Shown in pieces: positions 23,730-33,266 of a DNA stretch of 34,641 nt. Where the stretch lies: NCBI GenBank assembly GCA_017515425.1, contig JAFWFU010000010.1, positions 1 through 34,641 of the forward strand, given 5' to 3'. Below the pieces are notes generated by a model, which saw nothing but the letters and a program-made list of their open reading frames with translations, was not told the origin of the DNA and searched no databases. Origin of the DNA: Mogibacterium sp. GTDB taxonomy: Bacteria > Bacillota > Clostridia > Peptostreptococcales > Anaerovoracaceae. A program made the position numbers and the translations under genes. How positions within the stretch are numbered: position 1 is the first letter of the stretch; each line of letters opens with the position of its first letter.

Positions 23730-25715
23730 ATGACAATTTTTTACAACATAATTGCATTTCTCGGTGGGCTCGCCATGTTCCTCTACGGTATGAGGGTCAT
23801 GGGCGACGGTCTTAAGAATTCATCAGGCGGAGCAATGAGAGAGGCTCTTGCCAGAGTTACCAACAAACCCTATATGGGCTTTATCCTCGGTATGCTCGTC
23901 GCATGTATCATACAGAGCTCAACCGCCACGATAGTAATTGCAGTCGGCTTGGTAGGTGCGGGATTTCTCACCTTTCATCAATCTATCGGCATAGTGCTGG
24001 GCGCCAATGTCGGTACTGCCATCACCGCGCAGATTATCAGACTCATGGACGTAAGCTCCGGAATGGACAGTCCCCTGTATTTCTTCAAGGCGGATAACCT
24101 CGCGCCCCTCGCGCTTGTAATCGGAATCACCATGATAATGTTTATCAAGACAAGTGCCTCCAAAACCGCCGGCTCGGTCGCCTGCGGATTCGGCATTCTT
24201 TTTATGGGTCTTATCTATATGAGCAATGTCGTCTCAGGTTTCGGCGAGTCGCTCAGCAACCTTCTCACGGCATTCGAAAACAATTATTTCCTCGGATTCC
24301 TCTCGGGTATACTTGTGACCGGAGTCGTCCAGAGCTCATCTGCCGTCGTCGGTATTATTCAGTCCATAGCCAGCTCCGTGGGAGTCACATTCAGTGCGGT
24401 ATTCGCTGTGATTATCGGTGTAAATATCGGAGACTGCGTCACGACCTACCTCGTAAGCAGCATTGGAGCCAAGCCAAATCAAAAGCGCACAGCCGTTGTT
24501 CATATCGTGTATAACGTATTCGCCGCCCTGCTCTGCTTCCTGATTATCTTTGTCGGAAGGACGAGCGGTATCATAGATGATGATTGGTGGAATAAGGTTC
24601 TCAATTCAGGCGGAGTCGCCAATATCCATGGGTTCTTCAGACTCGTTCCGGCGGTTGCACTTCTGCCGCTTACCGGACTCTTTGAGCGTATCACCTGTTC
24701 GCTTGTCAAGGAAGAGCGTATCGACGATGAGGACAAAAATGCGATTGCCGCACTCGACGCTCTTGATGAACGCCTATTTAACACGCCCGCTCTCGCTCTC
24801 GAACAGGTTGACCGCGTTGTTTGGGAGATGAGCGAAATCGCATGTCATAATTTCGACGCTGCCGTAAAGCAGATTTACGATTACGATCCTAAGCGCAATC
24901 AAAGAATAGAGGCTAGAGAAAATCTCCTCGACAGCATGACCGACGCCGCCAACAAATATATCGTTTCCCTATCGCCTCATGTCAGGCTCTACAGAGATAC
25001 GAAGAGGCAGAACTATACTCTCAAATCATTGATTTGTTACGAGAGGATTGGAGATCTCGCCAAGAATATCGCCAATGAAGTCGAGGAATTGAAATCAAGC
25101 GGCAAGGAGTTCTCGCCTACAGCAATGCAGGAACTCAGAATCGCCTTCGACGCGATATATGAAATCCTCGATATTACGGCAAGAGCTTATAGAACGAAGA
25201 GTTCGAGCCTCGCAGCTAAGGTGGAGCCTTTAGAAGAGGTCATTGACGATTTAGTGGAAGAGCTGAACGCACGCCATGTATATAGAATGGTAAACAATCT
25301 CTGCGACGCCTTCAAGGGTATTCAGTTCCAAACAATCCTAACCAATATTGAGCATATTTCCGATAAATGCAGCGACATCGCCGTTTATATCTTAGAGCGC
25401 GATAATAATGAAATCTTCGGGCAGGAGCATTCATATATACATGAGCTTCATATAAACAATGATGACGAGTACAAAAATAATTATAATAAGAAGCACGACA
25501 AATACTTTAAGGCAATCGAAGCCATATCCATGGTGTCAGCGCCCATAGATGATGATAAGGACGAGGACAAGGATAATGGCAAGAGCGGAAAAGCCGATAT
25601 GAAGGATATAAAGAAGGTAAAGACGGACTCAAAGGTGCCTTCGAAGTCGAAGGAGAAGTCCGAAAAGAAGACGAAGGAAAAAAGCGGCAATGATAACCTT
25701 GTTATTTTGATTTAA
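23730..25715 (+). CDS. Na/Pi cotransporter family protein with PhoU-like domain, paralogue 1
   Basis: The membrane half (about residues 1-320) has the two inverted QSS motifs of NptA/PNaS transporters, IIQSSTATIVIAVG and VVQSSSAVVGIIQS, each after a GxLxMFLYGM- or FLSGILVTG-like helix. A PhoU-like helical domain spans about 345-560. The family imports phosphate with sodium; the PhoU part probably regulates it. The last 75 residues are highly charged (Lys/Asp/Glu/Ser) and probably disordered, which the second copy at 29078-30844 lacks. The length is 661 residues. AAGGAAG lies 11 bases ahead of the ATG. It is the only plus-strand gene of the window, and its last 14 bases overlap the end of the convergent potD-like gene. 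Confidence 0.92.
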   Translation: MTIFYNIIAFLGGLAMFLYGMRVMGDGLKNSSGGAMREALARVTNKPYMGFILGMLVACIIQSSTATIVIAVGLVGAGFLTFHQSIGIVLGANVGTAITAQIIRLMDVSSGMDSPLYFFKADNLAPLALVIGITMIMFIKTSASKTAGSVACGFGILFMGLIYMSNVVSGFGESLSNLLTAFENNYFLGFLSGILVTGVVQSSSAVVGIIQSIASSVGVTFSAVFAVIIGVNIGDCVTTYLVSSIGAKPNQKRTAVVHIVYNVFAALLCFLIIFVGRTSGIIDDDWWNKVLNSGGVANIHGFFRLVPAVALLPLTGLFERITCSLVKEERIDDEDKNAIAALDALDERLFNTPALALEQVDRVVWEMSEIACHNFDAAVKQIYDYDPKRNQRIEARENLLDSMTDAANKYIVSLSPHVRLYRDTKRQNYTLKSLICYERIGDLAKNIANEVEELKSSGKEFSPTAMQELRIAFDAIYEILDITARAYRTKSSSLAAKVEPLEEVIDDLVEELNARHVYRMVNNLCDAFKGIQFQTILTNIEHISDKCSDIAVYILERDNNEIFGQEHSYIHELHINNDDEYKNNYNKKHDKYFKAIEAISMVSAPIDDDKDEDKDNGKSGKADMKDIKKVKTDSKVPSKSKEKSEKKTKEKSGNDNLVILI

Positions 25716-26769
25716 CCTTCTTCCAATAATCGCTATACAGCTCCGTCGCCTCGCTGTCGAGCGTTCTCAGCGACTCGCATTTCTCAATGATCTCATTTGT
25801 CGGAAATATCGCCTCTTCATTGAGATATTCCTCATCAATGAGTTCAAGCGCCGCCTCATTCGGCGTCGTATAGAATAGATAGTCGAAATTCTGAGCGGCG
25901 ACCTCAGCTTGGCAGAGGAAATTAATCCATTTCTCCGCATTTTCCTTATTCGTCGCCTCTTTCGGCACCACCCACGAATCTATGAAAAACTCCGTCCCCT
26001 CTTTAGGAACCACAAATTCCACATCTTCATTCAAATCCTTTGTATACATGTATTCGCCGTTCCAAACCACGCCGACAGCGGCAGAGCCATCAGCCAGCAA
26101 ATCTCTAGCCGAATCATTGGCATATTTGTATACGAGAGGTTTTTGAGCAATGAGTTCATCAGCAGCTTTTTTAATCTCATCCTTGTTCTCTGAGTTGAGA
26201 GAATAGCCGTTCTTCTTTAGACCTATCATAAAGGCATCCCTCACGCTGTCGGGCATTACCATCTGCCCCTTGAACTTCTCATTCCAAAGGTCGTCCCAAG
26301 AGTCAATCTCAATATCACCCACCATTTTGGTATTGTAGAGAATGCCCGAGACGCCAAGCTGATAGGGCACGGAATATTTGTTGCCCGGGTCGAATGACTC
26401 CGACTTTCTCATATAGACCTCGGATATATTGGCTAAATCCGGAATATTGGATTTATCAAGCTCTGCGAGCATGTCGTTTTCAGCCATTTTCTGTATCATA
26501 TAGTCCGAAGTGCATACGCAGTCATAGGTAGTCGCATTGTTTTCAAGCACGGTATACATCTCCTCAGCCGTATCATAGTAGTCAGGGATTACCATGATAC
26601 CCGTCTCCTCTTCGAACCTATCTATCAGCATGGGGTCGAAATAATCCCCGTAGCAATAGACATATACCTGGCCGTTTTCGCCGCTCCTGCATGATGTTGG
26701 AACAAAAACAGACGATACAATTATCATCATCATTATGAGAAATCTGCAAACAGCTCTTTTATTCTTCAA
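25702..26769 (-). CDS. potD: PotD-like spermidine/putrescine-binding lipoprotein, orphan
   Basis: This is an extracellular solute-binding lipoprotein of the polyamine PotD/F type. A signal segment rich in Met/Ile leads to the lipobox VPTSC, then a bilobed binding domain with YVYCYGDYFDPMLIDRFEEE, YDCVCTSDYMIQKM and WNGEYMYTKD. The best start is TTG at 26769, because GGAGGG lies 7 bases ahead. An ATG further out (26799) falls inside a terminator hairpin and has no ribosome site. No potABC genes accompany it here, so it must use a transporter encoded elsewhere or act as a sensor; the neighbouring two-component system lies upstream in the same direction. Confidence 0.88.
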   Translation of the reverse strand: MKNKRAVCRFLIMMMIIVSSVFVPTSCRSGENGQVYVYCYGDYFDPMLIDRFEEETGIMVIPDYYDTAEEMYTVLENNATTYDCVCTSDYMIQKMAENDMLAELDKSNIPDLANISEVYMRKSESFDPGNKYSVPYQLGVSGILYNTKMVGDIEIDSWDDLWNEKFKGQMVMPDSVRDAFMIGLKKNGYSLNSENKDEIKKAADELIAQKPLVYKYANDSARDLLADGSAAVGVVWNGEYMYTKDLNEDVEFVVPKEGTEFFIDSWVVPKEATNKENAEKWINFLCQAEVAAQNFDYLFYTTPNEAALELIDEEYLNEEAIFPTNEIIEKCESLRTLDSEATELYSDYWKKVKSK

Positions 26770-26787
26770 TCTTTTTCCCTCCGAAAG

Positions 26788-26829
26788 AAAACTCGTCATC
26801 TGCAGTGATAATTCATCACAGACGACGAG
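26788..26829 (-). terminator. terminator hairpin between kinase and potD-like gene
   Basis: CTCGTCATCTG...GTGAT (26792-26809) pairs with ATCAC..AGACGACGAG (26814-26829) around AATTC. On the minus strand it is followed by TTTTCTTTC and then the ribosome site of the potD-like gene. It either ends the kinase transcript or partly attenuates the next gene. Confidence 0.75.
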
Positions 26830-26857
26830 GCTATTGTAACATATTTTTTACTGCAAA

Positions 26858-28219
26858 TCACGACAGGGGCAGACTGATTTTGATGATAAAATCCCTGCCG
26901 TCAGAACTGCGCGCGCTCACGCTGCCGCCATAGAGAGATACTATAGCCTTTGCCATGGAAAGCCCTATGCCATGCCCGCCGGTTTGCGAATTCCGGGAAG
27001 CGTCCGTTCTATAAAATCTCTCAAATACATGGGGCAGGCTTTCGGGACTCAGCACTTCATCAACAAAGTTTTTTACCTCAAGCTCCGCATTCTTCCCCTC
27101 TCTTCTAAGCTTTACGCTAATCTCAGAGCCATTCGCCGCATACTTCACGGCATTGTCGAAAATGATAGAAGAGAGCTTTTCCATATCCTCGGCATTTCCT
27201 TTTGTAAATACGGGCTCCTCAATATCCGATACTATATCTACACCCTTTTCCTTTGCGAGCACGGCAAACGAAGCCGCCGATTCCGTCAGAATATCCGAAA
27301 GCGGAACATCACTCATAATAGGAGGGGATATTTCCTCCTCCATTCGTGATAGGTAGACGAGGTCATTTGTAAGGCTGGATAGCCTCTCCGCCTGGCTTTT
27401 TATTTCAGCCAAATCGCTTTTAATTTCAGCAACGCCCTCCGCCCCAAGCTCGGAAGTTTCAATTTTGCGAGCTTCTGCTCCAATTACACCGATTTCCGTC
27501 TCAGCTCCGCCGCCTTCTGCTCCATTTTTATCGACTTTCGCGGATTCGAGCACCATATTCATGAGGTCGATATTTGCCATGATAATCGACAGCGGCGTCT
27601 TTATCTCATGCCCTGCGTCAGTTATAAATCTCTTTTGTTTCTCATAGCTCTCCGCCACCGGCTTTACTATGCGCCCCGCGAAATACAGAATTATGAAAAA
27701 TACAACCAAGAGCCCCGCGAGAGACATCAATATGCTGGCTCTGAGGAAATCTCTATACGATTCGAGCACCCTGCCCCAGTCGAGGAAAACAATCTTGATA
27801 TATATATTTTCGCTGCTGATATTATATCTGAATTCTTCGATAAAACCGCTAGTCTTGCCCCTAGCCAAAGCTATATTCGCATATTCTATGGCATCCTCAT
27901 AGTCAATGGCTGAGATTCTATCGGTATTGATTTGAAGGACATTTCCATTGGTATCCGACAGAACCGTGAAAAATCTCGATTCCTCAGCTTCATCTCTGCT
28001 CAGACTCGGACCACCGCGCCCCCTGATACCAAAAAGCTCCGTAATAGGATCCCTCAGGAAGTTCTCAGAATTGGCTTGCAGCACCTCAATCCTGTCATCA
28101 GCGTCACTGACGACCTTGTTGTAGTTGATGATATTCATGCCGGACACTATGACCGCAAGCAGCAGCGTCAGCGAAATCATCGCAAGAGCTATAAATCTTA
28201 GTTTGAGTTTTTTTATCAT
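26858..28219 (-). CDS. sensor histidine kinase with extended dimerisation hairpin
   Basis: Helix 1 (residues 9-31), an extracellular domain of about 130 residues, and helix 2 (161-183) form the sensor. The kinase core has the H box TDAGHEIKTPLSIIMA with His 204, N box IIFDNAVKYAANG, and G2 GGHGIGLSMAKAIV. No HAMP domain is obvious. Between the two dimerisation helices lies an unusual insert at about residues 226-272, rich in Gly, Ala and Glu (KNGAEGGGAETEIG...). The 453-residue protein overlaps its response regulator gene by 4 bases (ATGA type), so they form a pair. Confidence 0.93.
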   Translation of the reverse strand: MIKKLKLRFIALAMISLTLLLAVIVSGMNIINYNKVVSDADDRIEVLQANSENFLRDPITELFGIRGRGGPSLSRDEAEESRFFTVLSDTNGNVLQINTDRISAIDYEDAIEYANIALARGKTSGFIEEFRYNISSENIYIKIVFLDWGRVLESYRDFLRASILMSLAGLLVVFFIILYFAGRIVKPVAESYEKQKRFITDAGHEIKTPLSIIMANIDLMNMVLESAKVDKNGAEGGGAETEIGVIGAEARKIETSELGAEGVAEIKSDLAEIKSQAERLSSLTNDLVYLSRMEEEISPPIMSDVPLSDILTESAASFAVLAKEKGVDIVSDIEEPVFTKGNAEDMEKLSSIIFDNAVKYAANGSEISVKLRREGKNAELEVKNFVDEVLSPESLPHVFERFYRTDASRNSQTGGHGIGLSMAKAIVSLYGGSVSARSSDGRDFIIKISLPLS

Positions 28220-28896
28220 TTTCTTTCTTCTTTTTCTAGCGAATATCCCGCATTTCTCATAGCCTTTATCCTTATATCGCTGCCTATTGAGGCAAGCTTC
28301 TTCCTAAGATATGAGATATACACCCATACAACATTGCTTTCCGTATCGCTGTCATATCCCCAGATATGATCCATGAAGATATCAACTGAGATTATATTCC
28401 CTGGGCGTGCCATTAAGAGCTCCATCATCTGAAACTCCTTATTGGCAAGCTTAATCGCTCCTGATGGCGTCGAAAGCTCAAAGTTCGCACGGTCTAAGGT
28501 GAGATTTCCAAGAGACAGCTTGCTCCCAGACTCCGCAGCAGGTCTCGTAATAGCCCTGACCGCAGCCAGCAATTCCTTTGCGTCGAAAGGCTTCGTCAGA
28601 TAGTAGTTCGCCCCCGTATCGAGACCCCGCACCTTGTCATCAACCTCCGATTTTGCAGTCAGCATTAAAACGGGAAGGTCGCTGCCGGATTCCCTTATTC
28701 TCCTGAGCACCTCTATCCCGTCCACCTTAGGCATCATTATATCCAATACAGCCGCGTCATAATTGCCCGCCTCAAGATAGTCGAGCGCATCCTGCCCGTC
28801 AAAGACAGCGTCGATAGAATAATTGCTATTTTCAAATATCTTGACGAGCGCCTTCGAAAGAGCCTTCTCGTCCTCAGCCAAAAGTATTCTCATCAT
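28216..28896 (-). CDS. OmpR/PhoB-family response regulator
   Basis: The receiver has AEDE at residues 7-10, phospho-accepting Asp 52 in VLDIMMPKVDG, Thr 80 and Lys 102 in LTKPFDAKE. The winged-helix effector domain includes LANKEFQMMELLMARPGNIIS and ends RNAGYSLE. The 226-residue length is standard. AGGAGATAA precedes the ATG. It is followed by the kinase gene. The target genes are unknown; the nearby Na/Pi transporters and the PotD-like protein are candidates. Confidence 0.95.
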   Translation of the reverse strand: MMRILLAEDEKALSKALVKIFENSNYSIDAVFDGQDALDYLEAGNYDAAVLDIMMPKVDGIEVLRRIRESGSDLPVLMLTAKSEVDDKVRGLDTGANYYLTKPFDAKELLAAVRAITRPAAESGSKLSLGNLTLDRANFELSTPSGAIKLANKEFQMMELLMARPGNIISVDIFMDHIWGYDSDTESNVVWVYISYLRKKLASIGSDIRIKAMRNAGYSLEKEERK

Positions 28897-29077: not shown

Positions 29078-30844
29078 TCAGTATTCGATTGCAAACTGTT
29101 TTTTATATTCCGAAAACTGAGTCTTGAACTGCTCGTTTTCTCTGAAATCAGGGTTCAGACGATACTCATGCAGTCCTATATCGCCAGATGCGGATTCGAG
29201 TATATCCACCGCCACATTGCTGCAATGGTCAGCTATTCTCTCATAATCCGTCAGCAAGTCGTTGAATACGAAGCCTATCTCGAGCGAACATTCCTGACGG
29301 CTGACCCTGTCAATATGTTTCGATTTGATCTCATCACAGAGGTCGTCTATTACCTCTTCCAAAGGATCTATCCTGATAGCCTTCTCAATATTGTTGTTTA
29401 TAAATGCATCTATTGTGAGAGAAGTAATCTCGCTTACAGCCTCTTCAAGTACATCGAGCTCTATCTTAGCCTTGTCGGTAAAAACTATCTTTTTCTCGTG
29501 GATCTCTTCTGCGGCTTCGCCTATATTTCTCGAATGATCGGAAATCCTCTCGAAGTCTGAGAGCACTCTGAGGTATTTGCTTATATCGGCGGACTGAGTA
29601 TGATTTAGATCGGCTGCCGTTATCTTGAGAAGATAGTTTCCCAGCTTATCCTCATATCTGTCAAGCACTCCTTCGAGGTCGAATACTTTTTTAAGCCCCT
29701 CCTTGCTGAACCCTCTTCTGACTGCAACCGCGCTTGCAACGCTTTCCAAGGCTTTCCCAGCCATTGAGTCAATGACTGACTTGCTCTGATTGATAGCCAG
29801 AGTCGGATGATTCAGGAATCTCGGCTCAAGCTTATCCATATCCGCTTTTTCAGCAGCAACTTCCGCATCCTCGGGGAATATCCTGCAAACTATTTTCTCC
29901 AGCAAACCAATAGCCGGCGAAAGCAGGACTACCACAGCCGCCCTGTATAGCGTGTTTAAAAGAGCAACGCCCACCATACTCATCTGTGCGCTCATGAAGC
30001 TAAACCCGATAATTGCATTTGCGATATAGAATATACCTCCGCAAAGCAGAGCTCCGAGGACGTCGATTATTAGATACACAAATGCAGTCCTCTTGCCATT
30101 TGTGCTGGCGCCGAGTGCGCTGAGCATGACCGGAACCGACGCACCGATACCTATACCCATGAGTATGGGAAAAGCCATATCAAACTCTACAGCTCCCGTA
30201 ACAGCTAGAGCCTGCAGAATACCTACCGCGGCGCTGGCGCTCTGAATGACGGCTGTTGCAACCGCACCTATCAGGACGCCGAGAAGTGGATTTGTAAAGC
30301 TTGTCATAAGCTCAATGAAGCGCTCATCCTCTCTAAGCGGAACAATGGCGCCGGACATCATGCTCATGCCGTACATCAGAACCGCAAATCCGAGCAGAAT
30401 TCCTCCCACATTTTTATGCGAGTTCTTCCTAGCGAACATCCAAAGCAGTATGCCTATAAGAGCAACTACGCCTGTAAGCATTTCCGTGCTAAGATAAGTC
30501 GCAATGCTTGCACCGGAACCGCCAAGGCTGTTTAGACAGAGTATCCAGCCGGTGATGCTAGTACCAAGTATTGCGCCAAGCACGATTCCTATCGCCTGTT
30601 TTACCTGCATCATACCAGAGTTTACAAAGCCCACTACCATTACAGATGTGGCAGATGAGGACTGTATCGCTGCCGTCACTCCTATTCCGAGCAAAATCCC
30701 CTTAATAGGGTTGCCTGCAAGTTTATACAGAACGGTCTCCATCCTGTTTCCTGCTACTTTCTTGAGGGAGTCCCCCATTACCGACATTCCGAAAAGGAAC
30801 ATCGCAACTCCGCCCAAGAGTGATATGATATTTGTTGAATCCAT
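29078..30844 (-). CDS. Na/Pi cotransporter family protein with PhoU-like domain, paralogue 2, behind a Mn2+ riboswitch
   Basis: This 588-residue protein has the same plan as the 23730 gene: a membrane half with paired QSS-type motifs (AIQSSSATSVMVVG and VIQSASAAVGILQA), then a PhoU-like domain at about residues 345-560, but no charged tail. The two proteins are clearly paralogous yet diverged. The ATG at 30844 follows GCGGAGGAT. The leader carries a yybP-ykoY-type aptamer and terminator, so transcription should be switched on by Mn2+. That regulation is usually attached to Mn exporters, so this copy may serve manganese/phosphate balance or transport something other than phosphate; this is inference. 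Phosphate import by sodium symport is the family annotation. Confidence 0.92.
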   Translation of the reverse strand: MDSTNIISLLGGVAMFLFGMSVMGDSLKKVAGNRMETVLYKLAGNPIKGILLGIGVTAAIQSSSATSVMVVGFVNSGMMQVKQAIGIVLGAILGTSITGWILCLNSLGGSGASIATYLSTEMLTGVVALIGILLWMFARKNSHKNVGGILLGFAVLMYGMSMMSGAIVPLREDERFIELMTSFTNPLLGVLIGAVATAVIQSASAAVGILQALAVTGAVEFDMAFPILMGIGIGASVPVMLSALGASTNGKRTAFVYLIIDVLGALLCGGIFYIANAIIGFSFMSAQMSMVGVALLNTLYRAAVVVLLSPAIGLLEKIVCRIFPEDAEVAAEKADMDKLEPRFLNHPTLAINQSKSVIDSMAGKALESVASAVAVRRGFSKEGLKKVFDLEGVLDRYEDKLGNYLLKITAADLNHTQSADISKYLRVLSDFERISDHSRNIGEAAEEIHEKKIVFTDKAKIELDVLEEAVSEITSLTIDAFINNNIEKAIRIDPLEEVIDDLCDEIKSKHIDRVSRQECSLEIGFVFNDLLTDYERIADHCSNVAVDILESASGDIGLHEYRLNPDFRENEQFKTQFSEYKKQFAIEY

Positions 30845-30904
30845 TAATTTTTTATCCTCCGCTTTTCTAAAGCATTTTTCTTTTGTACGCTTTTCTTATT
30901 TCTA

Positions 30905-30944
30905 TAAAAAAGAGGCTTATACCTGAATATTCGGCATAAGTCTC
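30905..30944 (-). terminator. riboswitch expression-platform terminator
   Basis: GAGACTTATGCC and GGTATAAGCCTC on the minus strand form a 12-base imperfect stem with a 9-base loop, followed by TTTTTT. Its 5' strand is the same sequence as the 3' strand of the aptamer closing helix, so the two structures exclude each other. Confidence 0.85.
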
Positions 30945-31029
30945 GCTTATTACAACATATTCCGGGGATTTGTCCCGTACTGACGAAATATGTCACGCAT
31001 CTCTGCGCAAGCTACTCCTTTTTTTAACC
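30933..31029 (-). ncRNA. yybP-ykoY manganese riboswitch
   Basis: The minus-strand leader contains the conserved pieces of this class in order: AAAAGGAGTAGC, a small hairpin CGCA-GAGA-TGCG, helix strand ACATATT, the loop TCGTCA (30986-30981), a GGG/CCC hairpin followed by CG, the closing strand AATATGT, and AGCGAGACTT. Known members (for example L. lactis yybP-ykoY) have GGGGAGUAGC, UCGUCA, CCG and AGCAAGACCUU at the same places. The outermost helix P1 looks weak here. A consensus promoter lies just upstream and a terminator overlaps the 3' end, an arrangement expected to turn the gene on when Mn2+ binds. Confidence 0.85.
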
Positions 31030-31034
31030 TGATA

Positions 31035-31063
31035 ACTATCACATATTTCACAATCCTTGTCAA
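31035..31063 (-). promoter_or_regulatory. promoter of the riboswitch transcript
   Basis: TTGACA (31063-31058) is followed after 17 bases by GATAGT (31040-31035) on the minus strand. Transcription would start a few bases before the aptamer. Confidence 0.65.
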
Positions 31064-31982: not shown

Positions 31983-33179
31983 TCAGATTATTTTCGACCT
32001 GCGAAGATCCTCCTTAGCGTCCTCAAATTTAATGTGCGTATAGGTGTTAAATGTAACACTTATATCCGAATGACCCATCAAATATTGAAGCGTCTTGGGA
32101 TTAATTCCGGACTTCGCCATATTGCTGCAGTAAGTATGTCTGCATACGTGTGGTGTTATTTTTGGTATTTCTTCCTTGTAAGTTTTATTGTACTTCTGTC
32201 TGATATGCTTGAAATAATGCTCCCAGTGCAGAGCTACCATAGGCATTCCGTTTTTGTCAAGGAACAGAAATCCGGATACACCGCCTACAACAGGCTCCTT
32301 ACTCGGCTTAGGTCTTCTTTCTATGATTGCCTTAAAACAGTCGCATACTTCGTCAGAAACAGGGATGACTCTGTCTCCTGCCTCCGTCTTGGGGTTCTCT
32401 ATGATGAGCTTCATATTAGACCCTCTCATAAGCTGACGCTCAATCCTAACAGTCTTAGCTTTGAAGTCTATATCATCAATAGTCAAACCACAGAATTCTG
32501 ATATTCTCATCCCTGTCTTAAAAAGAATAAACACTGCTTCATAGTATTTAGAGAAATGTCTGTCGTTCTTTGTGAACTCGATAAACTTTCTCTCTATCTT
32601 ACGAGGGACAGCATCTCTTCTGACAGAATCGTTGACCAGCACTGTAGCAAGTTCAAAGTCAAAAGGATTCTTTGGTATGAGATCATCATCCACGGCTATT
32701 CAAAATGCAGGCCTCAGAACACCACGTATATTATGGATAGTACTGTAGCTTTTTTTCTTTTCTTCCTGAAGTGATATGAGCCAGAGCTTTGCATCTGATG
32801 TCCTGACTTTATCAATCTGCCTACCGGCAAATGGATCCGTCTTGAGATAGTTAAGCACTGTCTTATATCCGGACATAGTGCTCTGCCTAACGTTACGTCT
32901 TGTCCGCGTATATCTGTCGACCAGATCATAGACTGTAATCTTACTTGCAGAATGGTGAAGCCCAAAGCTCTGCCTTTTGTAGTAGTCATCAATCATGTCT
33001 CTCAGAGCTTCACAATCTCTTTTACCTTCAGGAAGCTTGTCAGTACGTTCTAATCTCCAACTGTAGAAACACTTTTGTGTTCCATTCTCATAGAACGTGA
33101 ACCTGTATTTACCATCTTTGCTCTGGCTCTCTCCATTTCTTAGAATGCGATTTCTATTATCTCGCCTTTTAATGCTCAT
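31983..33179 (-). pseudogene. int: Tn916-type tyrosine integrase interrupted by one TGA
   Basis: The start at 33179 follows AAGGAGGAGC and gives MSIKRRDNRNRILRNGESQS, the Tn916 Int N-terminal arm-binding domain. The frame reaches RGVLRPAF, then TGA (32702-32700), then continues in the same frame as IAVDDDLIPKNPFDFELATV to 31983. Tn916 Int reads RPAFQMAVDDDLI at this place, so one codon became a stop with no insertion or deletion. All catalytic residues are downstream: Arg in TGMRISEFCGLT, HxxR in TPHVCRHTYC, His in LMGHSD and the nucleophile Tyr in NTYTH. The total is 398 codons, near the 405 of Tn916 Int. A GTG at 32693 could give a 236-residue catalytic fragment without arm binding. Unless the stop is read through, integration and excision should be impaired. 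Confidence 0.88.
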
Positions 33180-33266
33180 TATTTGCTCCTCCTTATTATT
33201 TATTAGGACGAGCCATTTGCATCGATATATGCCATTATACCATGGCATACCGATGCTCATCACTCC

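Follow-up and report, generated by a model that had tools for sequence, protein, structure and literature searches.

We found that, in the 34,641-nucleotide stretch of Mogibacterium sp. DNA analyzed here (the window), the gene PNaS-A, which encodes a Na/Pi-cotransporter-like protein of 588 amino acids, is preceded on the minus strand by a leader that almost certainly belongs to the yybP-ykoY Mn2+ riboswitch class or is very closely related to it, as shown in silico. The likely best explanation of the whole is a transcription-ON switch of the Mn2+ class, which would place this PNaS gene in the manganese-excess response. The same kind of leader stands before PNaS genes in many relatives, and three PNaS types carry it: PNaS-A, PNaS-D and a type with 39% identity.

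The leader upstream of PNaS-A and its riboswitch class

A first-pass annotation, made from the letters of the window alone, had placed a yybP-ykoY leader upstream of PNaS-A. Its coordinates and leader motifs were correct, every element it named being present on the minus strand of 30906-31063, where TTGACA at 31063 is followed by GGAGTAGC, CGTCA...ACGGG...CCCCGG, AGCGAGACTT and a hairpin with a T run. A promoter-like site, the aptamer, a terminator and the PNaS-A open reading frame (ORF; 30844-29078) follow each other in this order (Table 1). The aptamer comprises a weak P1.1, loop L1 (GGAGUA/GAGA), P1.2, P2, P3.1, loop L3 (UCAGUAC) and P3.2, and the 5′ strand of the terminator is the 3′ side of L1/P1.1. 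Reading of the sequence left no room for a P4 between P3.1 and P1.2, which gives a three-way junction and not a four-way one. When 30902-31035 was folded, none of 200 shuffled sequences equalled the native stability (z -3.4). The consensus promoter claimed by the same annotation held in part: the TTGACA/GATAGT site is there, and a strict pattern (TTGAC...TGTGATA-type) fits 12 of 25 related leaders including that of the window, but by itself the promoter lies within chance, the consensus scan giving 2 sites against 1.1 ± 1.0 expected.

The check proposed with that annotation, a hit of Rfam RF00080 above threshold, did not materialize. The leader was reported neither at the gathering threshold of 45 bits nor at E<=10, and over the whole host genome RF00080 gave only an 11.6-bit match, located elsewhere. 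This result does not decide membership, because the E. coli mntP and alx leaders, described as Mn-sensing riboswitches in passages of PMC9603457, failed too: in E. coli K-12, mntP scored 41.6 bits, below the threshold, and alx was not reported at E<=1. The RF00080 score was dropped as a deciding test. The RF00080 model (Rfam release 15) has 177 positions, and the window aptamer has 92 nt and no P4.

Covariance models of our own were used instead. R1 and its corrected version R2 were built from 26 PNaS-gene leaders. For R3, 61 leaders that precede ATPase, GDT1, MntP, exchanger and TerC genes were taken from outside the genus, and none of them is a PNaS leader. R3 matched the window aptamer with 74.4 bits (E 1.5e-16), the sole site at E<=1 in the 34,641 bases with filters off. 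R2 scored it at 94.9 bits with the window leader in its training set, and R1 and R2 each found one strong site in the window, the next best having 11 bits. In addition, R3 recovered 25 of the 30 PNaS loci L002-L031 and both E. coli leaders (mntP 37.3 bits, alx 22 bits); the E. coli leaders are in no model, and the members of R3 had been found and aligned with the PNaS-trained R1 and R2, which makes its test partly circular.

Because covariation within the PNaS leaders alone was too weak, wider leader sets were used. In an alignment of 90 leaders (89 distinct), 95.5% of the cells held standard pairs and 25 of 25 pairs showed compensatory changes, counts that are biased towards the structure to which the alignment was fitted. 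None of 500 shuffles reached the observed values, and slid controls were at most 46.9% paired. The R3 match, the order-level search with R1 (below) and the covariation over the 90 leaders together support the class that the annotation had proposed. RF00080 overlooks this short, P4-less form, and we infer that gut and rumen Firmicutes may hold more members of the class than are currently counted.

Genes that share the switch

That PNaS genes of related genomes might share the leader had been raised by the first-pass annotation, and it was borne out. Searching 47 genomes of the genus with R1 gave 44 matches in 35 genomes, and 31 of the 44 sit 51-146 nt upstream of a PNaS gene: 28 before PNaS-A and three before PNaS-D, a protein about 30% identical to P0001, the PNaS-A protein of the window. 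The genus has 41 PNaS-A entries (at least 50% identity; fragments counted apart), 28 of which carry the switch, and none of the ten genus entries in the PNaS class with 40-49% identity does so. In G020 and G032, a switch-bearing PNaS-D is followed by PNaS-A. Across 296 genomes of the family, eight further switch-PNaS cases were found in three other genera, four by script and four, all of g83, by reading coordinates. Genus g83 has five PNaS-A genes with the switch (the one in G462 contains one internal stop). Of the two cases in g12, one is of PNaS-D type, with 65% identity to PNaS-D, and the other is of the 39% type, as is the single case in g73. Three more cases (L055, L070 and L090) are not placed as to kinship. 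In some PNaS-A leaders (L004/L033, L030/L102, L031/L060 and L064), a promoter-like site and a terminator-like hairpin are kept, by reading, and the aptamer is mostly or wholly missing or degenerate.

A printed link between PNaS genes and the Mn riboswitch was not found in the literature searched, which excluded the gene lists of the founding papers and of the Streptococcus mgtA paper; the parts of PMC11477304 and PMC9495176 consulted make no mention of one. Riboswitch class and PNaS family are both known, and their pairing may perhaps already stand in an unsearched gene table of the founding papers.

At the level of the order, R1 matched 112 of 297 genomes at E<=0.01 with 124 matches. Eleven matches from the home genus were set aside, as was one that lay at a contig edge, and the other 112 were examined (G005, still of the home genus, stayed in). 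The downstream family was that of the best-scoring tblastn match in the 1,450 nt that follow, with probes checked by Pfam and E. coli MntP and Alx also serving as probes. The 112 examined matches preceded P-type ATPases (54), GDT1/UPF0016 (28), MntP (13), Na/Ca exchangers (7), OAD_beta (5), TerC/Alx (1) and unclassified genes (4), and none of them preceded a PNaS gene. The 13 non-PNaS matches of the genus belonged to P-type ATPases (9), CitMHS (3) and an exchanger (1); Pfam identified one of these ATPases and two of the CitMHS proteins, and the rest were assigned by similarity. The second switch copy of the host genome also stands before a P-type ATPase.

A P-type ATPase is present in 39 of the 47 genus genomes, and nine of these carry the switch before it. 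With filters off, 28 of the other 30 ATPase upstream regions gave no match to R1 or R3; contig ends had cut two of these scanned regions to less than 290 nt. Within the genus the switch is accordingly commoner before PNaS-A (28/41 entries) than before the P-type ATPase (9/39 genomes). The idea that the switch marks PNaS since the genome lacks a P-type ATPase was ruled out by the presence of that ATPase in 39 genomes.

Further families were seen under the same riboswitch. CitMHS-type (PF03600) permeases, another family of anion transporters, follow it at L144, L193 and L194 in the home genus, at L307 in g74 and at L319 in g12 (Pfam for L144 and L193, similarity for the other three). In another family of the order, the gene for the beta subunit of a Na+-translocating decarboxylase (OAD_beta) follows it at L120, L121, L222, L227 and L231; Pfam was applied to the L120 protein only. 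Finally, riboswitch-like leaders at L289 and L296 (R1 31-35 bits) precede a small protein beginning MTTIYDRTKEI, whose first 80 amino acids had no Pfam match.

Probable switching and effector, and possible function of PNaS-A

The 3′ strand of P1.1 doubles as the 5′ strand of the terminator, and therefore metal should switch the gene ON. The first-pass annotation had made this same prediction from the overlap of the terminator with the closing strand of the aptamer, and our analysis supports it: in 23 of 25 leaders, a terminator folded whose first bases are the GAGAC of L1/P1.1, and the remaining two leaders were incomplete in the extracted sequence. In L. lactis and X. oryzae, as described in portions of PMC6754395 and PMC11087558, Mn2+ holds P1.1 and blocks a terminator sharing its 3′ strand, which turns the gene ON. 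Given the overlapping helices and the likeness to this mechanism, the leader very probably acts by antitermination. At low Mn2+, the 3′ half of P1.1 would pair with sequence further downstream to form the terminator, and transcription of the PNaS gene would end at the U-run. At high Mn2+, the metal would dock L1 on L3 and hold P1.1, the terminator would be blocked and PNaS-A protein would be made. The PNaS-A gene would then be part of the manganese-excess response, beside the P-type ATPase whose gene follows the second copy of the switch in this genome.

The loops expected to bind the metal are conserved. In 25 PNaS leaders, L3 reads UCAGUAC (20), UCAAUAC (4) or UCAAGAC (1), always seven bases closed by U.G, C-G and G-C, and in the leader of the host's P-type ATPase it likewise reads GTCAATACGG, in agreement with the PNaS leaders. 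L1 (GGAGUA/GAGA) and the A at the third position of L3 are invariant columns in 26 leaders. According to the parts of PMC6754395 consulted, A48 in L3 of the X. oryzae riboswitch binds Mn2+ through N7, and L1 purines are described too; in our own alignment, the third base of L3 corresponds to A48, and the L1 purines have counterparts as well. Judged by the class, the conserved L1 and L3 and the regulon, Mn2+ is quite probably the main effector.

Several observations weigh against a manganese-ON switch serving a phosphate transporter. RF00080 is silent on the leader, even at E<=10. Taken by themselves, the 26 PNaS leaders show only weak covariation (three pairs changed on both sides), with too little variation to speak for or against the fold, and their P1.1 is weak as well, with 74.6% of its cells paired. 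The window P1.1 has three of five standard pairs, and its top pair is A.C, against G-C in each of the 25 other aligned leaders. The window terminator, at -13.3 kcal/mol when folded alone, is the weakest of the 23 that folded whole, and it has an A.C beside the same base as the A.C of P1.1. With both competing helices weakened, the window copy may have kept its balance or may be a poor switch. Thirteen of the 41 PNaS-A entries have no detected leader, two of them at contig edges; one of these two is a gene fragment, and the fragment that holds the start of that gene does carry the switch. In addition, a review of C. difficile riboswitches (PMC11477304), in the part consulted, calls Mn riboswitches OFF and lists Co2+, Cd2+ and Ni2+ as bound too, whereas the experiments of PMC6754395 and PMC11087558 point to ON. 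Lastly, the absence of both Asn residues and the QSAS of repeat 2, described next, leave PNaS-A as an ordinary Na/Pi symporter not assured.

PNaS-A exceeds the curated Pfam cut-offs for PF02690, with two Na_Pi_cotrans stretches, and for PhoU, as well as the cut-off of NCBIfam NF037997 (Na/Pi symporter), and its sequence matches solved structures of solute carrier family 34 (SLC34) member 2a at E 8.6e-14. Its motifs read QSSSATS/GAILGT in repeat 1 and QSASAAV/GIGIGAS in repeat 2, which depart from the pattern of QSSS in both repeats together with GxNxG. Among clade-A rows (49-100% identity), all 69 with both motifs readable have lost two Asn residues, that of GxNxGT (repeat 1) and that of GxNIG (repeat 2), and QSAS replaces QSSS in repeat 2 in 71 of 72. 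Among 25 other PNaS rows, repeat 1 retains its Asn in 21 of the 23 that are readable and repeat 2 in 19 of 25, and the solved SLC34 member 2a has the Asn in repeat 1. By sequence, PNaS-A is a clade of its own, and the Asn of GxNxG may be a defining or functional residue. The loss occurs irrespective of the switch (31 clade-A rows are labelled with it, 37 without, and four are too short), and the Asn is retained in PNaS-D and the 39% type, which also bear the switch; therefore, the common factor is PNaS rather than the altered motif, and phosphate handling would be the common theme.

Our first choice for the function, held tentatively, is that PNaS-A would move phosphate inward, driven by Na+ like NptA of S. 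pneumoniae, for which Na+-driven phosphate import is described in passages of PMC4913102. Phosphate import would offset the phosphate bound by Mn2+ and buffer the metal. The PhoU domain would gate the transporter as a second manganese input; E. coli PhoU binds Mn2+ and Mg2+ (sections of PMC4913102 and PMC12301784). Searches of the host genome, which is 90% complete, gave no match for Pit (PHO4) and only a partial match below the cut-off for Nramp, and all 44 matches of a PstB query fell below the cut-off; these results do not settle import versus export. A broader idea, which we offer with some doubt, is that in this bacterial family the Mn2+ riboswitch controls metal pumps together with transporters of metal-binding anions (PNaS and CitMHS carboxylate permeases). 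Manganese excess might then be handled partly by moving phosphate, carboxylate or a metal-anion complex, and PNaS-A might have diverged for that task.

The main rival on function is that PNaS-A itself exports manganese or a manganese-phosphate species and that its family name misleads. In its favor, 103 of the 112 examined order-level matches precede cation-transporter families, mostly of efflux type, the motifs of clade A are altered almost throughout, and in the genus the switch is found oftener at PNaS-A than at the P-type ATPase. We nevertheless consider it rather unlikely, given that clade-A genes lacking the switch show the motif loss just as uniformly and that the other switch-bearing PNaS types keep the Asn. 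Less probable still is the export of phosphate, as by E. coli YjbB, by which a cell in Mn2+ excess would lower its cytosolic phosphate and avert precipitation of manganese phosphate. The E. coli annotation describes YjbB as putatively a phosphate export protein, and YjbB aligns with P0001 over the full length, but the two are only 23% identical and YjbB has YSSL where P0001 has QSAS. Na+ coupling, moreover, favors import.

It is also quite improbable that the main signal for the switch is a divalent ion other than Mn2+, for instance Ca2+, with the gene belonging to a calcium-phosphate response. The three-way-junction yybP-ykoY aptamer of pneumococcal mgtA is reported to bind Ca2+ tighter than Mn2+ (parts of the review PMC9495176), Na/Ca exchangers and Ca-type ATPases are among the targets of the switch, variants of the class with altered specificity are expected (excerpts of PMC7266159), and the binding of Co2+, Cd2+ and Ni2+ in PMC11477304 points the same way. 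However, mgtA transcription is activated more by Mn2+ in the same portions of PMC9495176, and the PNaS leaders and the leader of the host's ATPase gene are alike in L3. That the leader is a chance resemblance or a dead remnant with no regulatory role is hardly credible: the silence of RF00080, the weakened helices of the window and the loss of the aptamer in some relatives (L030, L031) would fit it, but the R3 match at E 1.5e-16, the switch before 31 PNaS genes of the genus and the covariation over 90 leaders speak against it.

Which genes a riboswitch controls is one of the chief clues to what its ligand does in the cell. With a Mn2+-type switch ahead of phosphate-type transporters in dozens of genomes, manganese excess would be tied to phosphate handling in bacteria, and the pairing suggests that Mogibacterium sp. 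(rumen-type) and many relatives adjust phosphate handling under manganese excess. It also offers an uncharacterised PNaS clade with divergent motifs a function that can be tested.

Genomic neighbourhood and closest known systems

The features of the leader and the two PNaS genes of the window are collected in Table 1. The first-pass annotation had described the other PNaS copy, PNaS-C, as having no such leader, and both tests agreed with it: reading of its upstream region found none, and neither a strong R1 or R2 site nor an R3 site at E<=1 was present there.

Table 1 Coordinates of the leader elements and PNaS genes in the 34,641-base window
Feature	Position	Strand	Basis
Promoter-like site TTGACA-17 nt-GATAGT, with TG ahead of the second hexamer	31035..31063	-	10/12 consensus matches
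Aptamer of yybP-ykoY type without P4	30935..31026	-	covariance models R3 and R2; covariation
Predicted intrinsic terminator GAG.A.CUUAUGCC...GGUAUAAG.C.CUC with U-run	30906..30944	-	folding and sequence
PNaS-A (P0001), 588 amino acids, Na_Pi_cotrans and PhoU	29078..30844	-	PF02690 1.3e-54, PF01895 1.3e-24
Second PNaS gene (PNaS-C)	23730..25715	+	34% identical to PNaS-A; keeps the Asn absent from PNaS-A

Downstream of PNaS-A on the same strand, genes for a response regulator, a histidine kinase and a PotD-like binding protein occupy 25702-28896. Farther off, also on the minus strand, lie adjoining ORFs with a Phage_integrase domain and a Tn916-type integrase DNA-binding domain (31983-33263), possibly an interrupted integrase of a mobile element, and a pemK RNA (RF02913; 33542-33639; 58 bits, above threshold).

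Regarding the protein, the closest known systems are the NptA/Na_Pi_cotrans transporters with PhoU domains and E. coli YjbB, with which PNaS-A has PF02690 and PF01895 in common. It differs from them in lacking the Asn of both GxNxG motifs and in having QSAS in repeat 2. Control of NptA/YjbB-type transporters by a Mn riboswitch was not reported in the literature searched.

Regarding the leader, the Mn2+/Ca2+ riboswitch of Streptococcus mgtA also has a three-way junction, according to the parts of PMC9495176 consulted, and its target mgtA is a cation ATPase. Rfam RF02617 (SSRC10) aligned end to end with the leader, terminator included, at 26.9 bits, below its gathering threshold of 56; SSRC10 looks like the same element as the Streptococcus mgtA riboswitch, which we mention as a lead only. 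Compared with the yybP-ykoY (RF00080) riboswitches of the L. lactis/X. oryzae type, the window leader is without P4 and has a three-way junction, is missed by RF00080 and has a PNaS gene as its target, but it is like them in the GGAGUA/GAGA of L1, in the seven-base L3 with an A in third place, in the order P1.1-P1.2-P2-P3 and in a terminator that overlaps P1.1.

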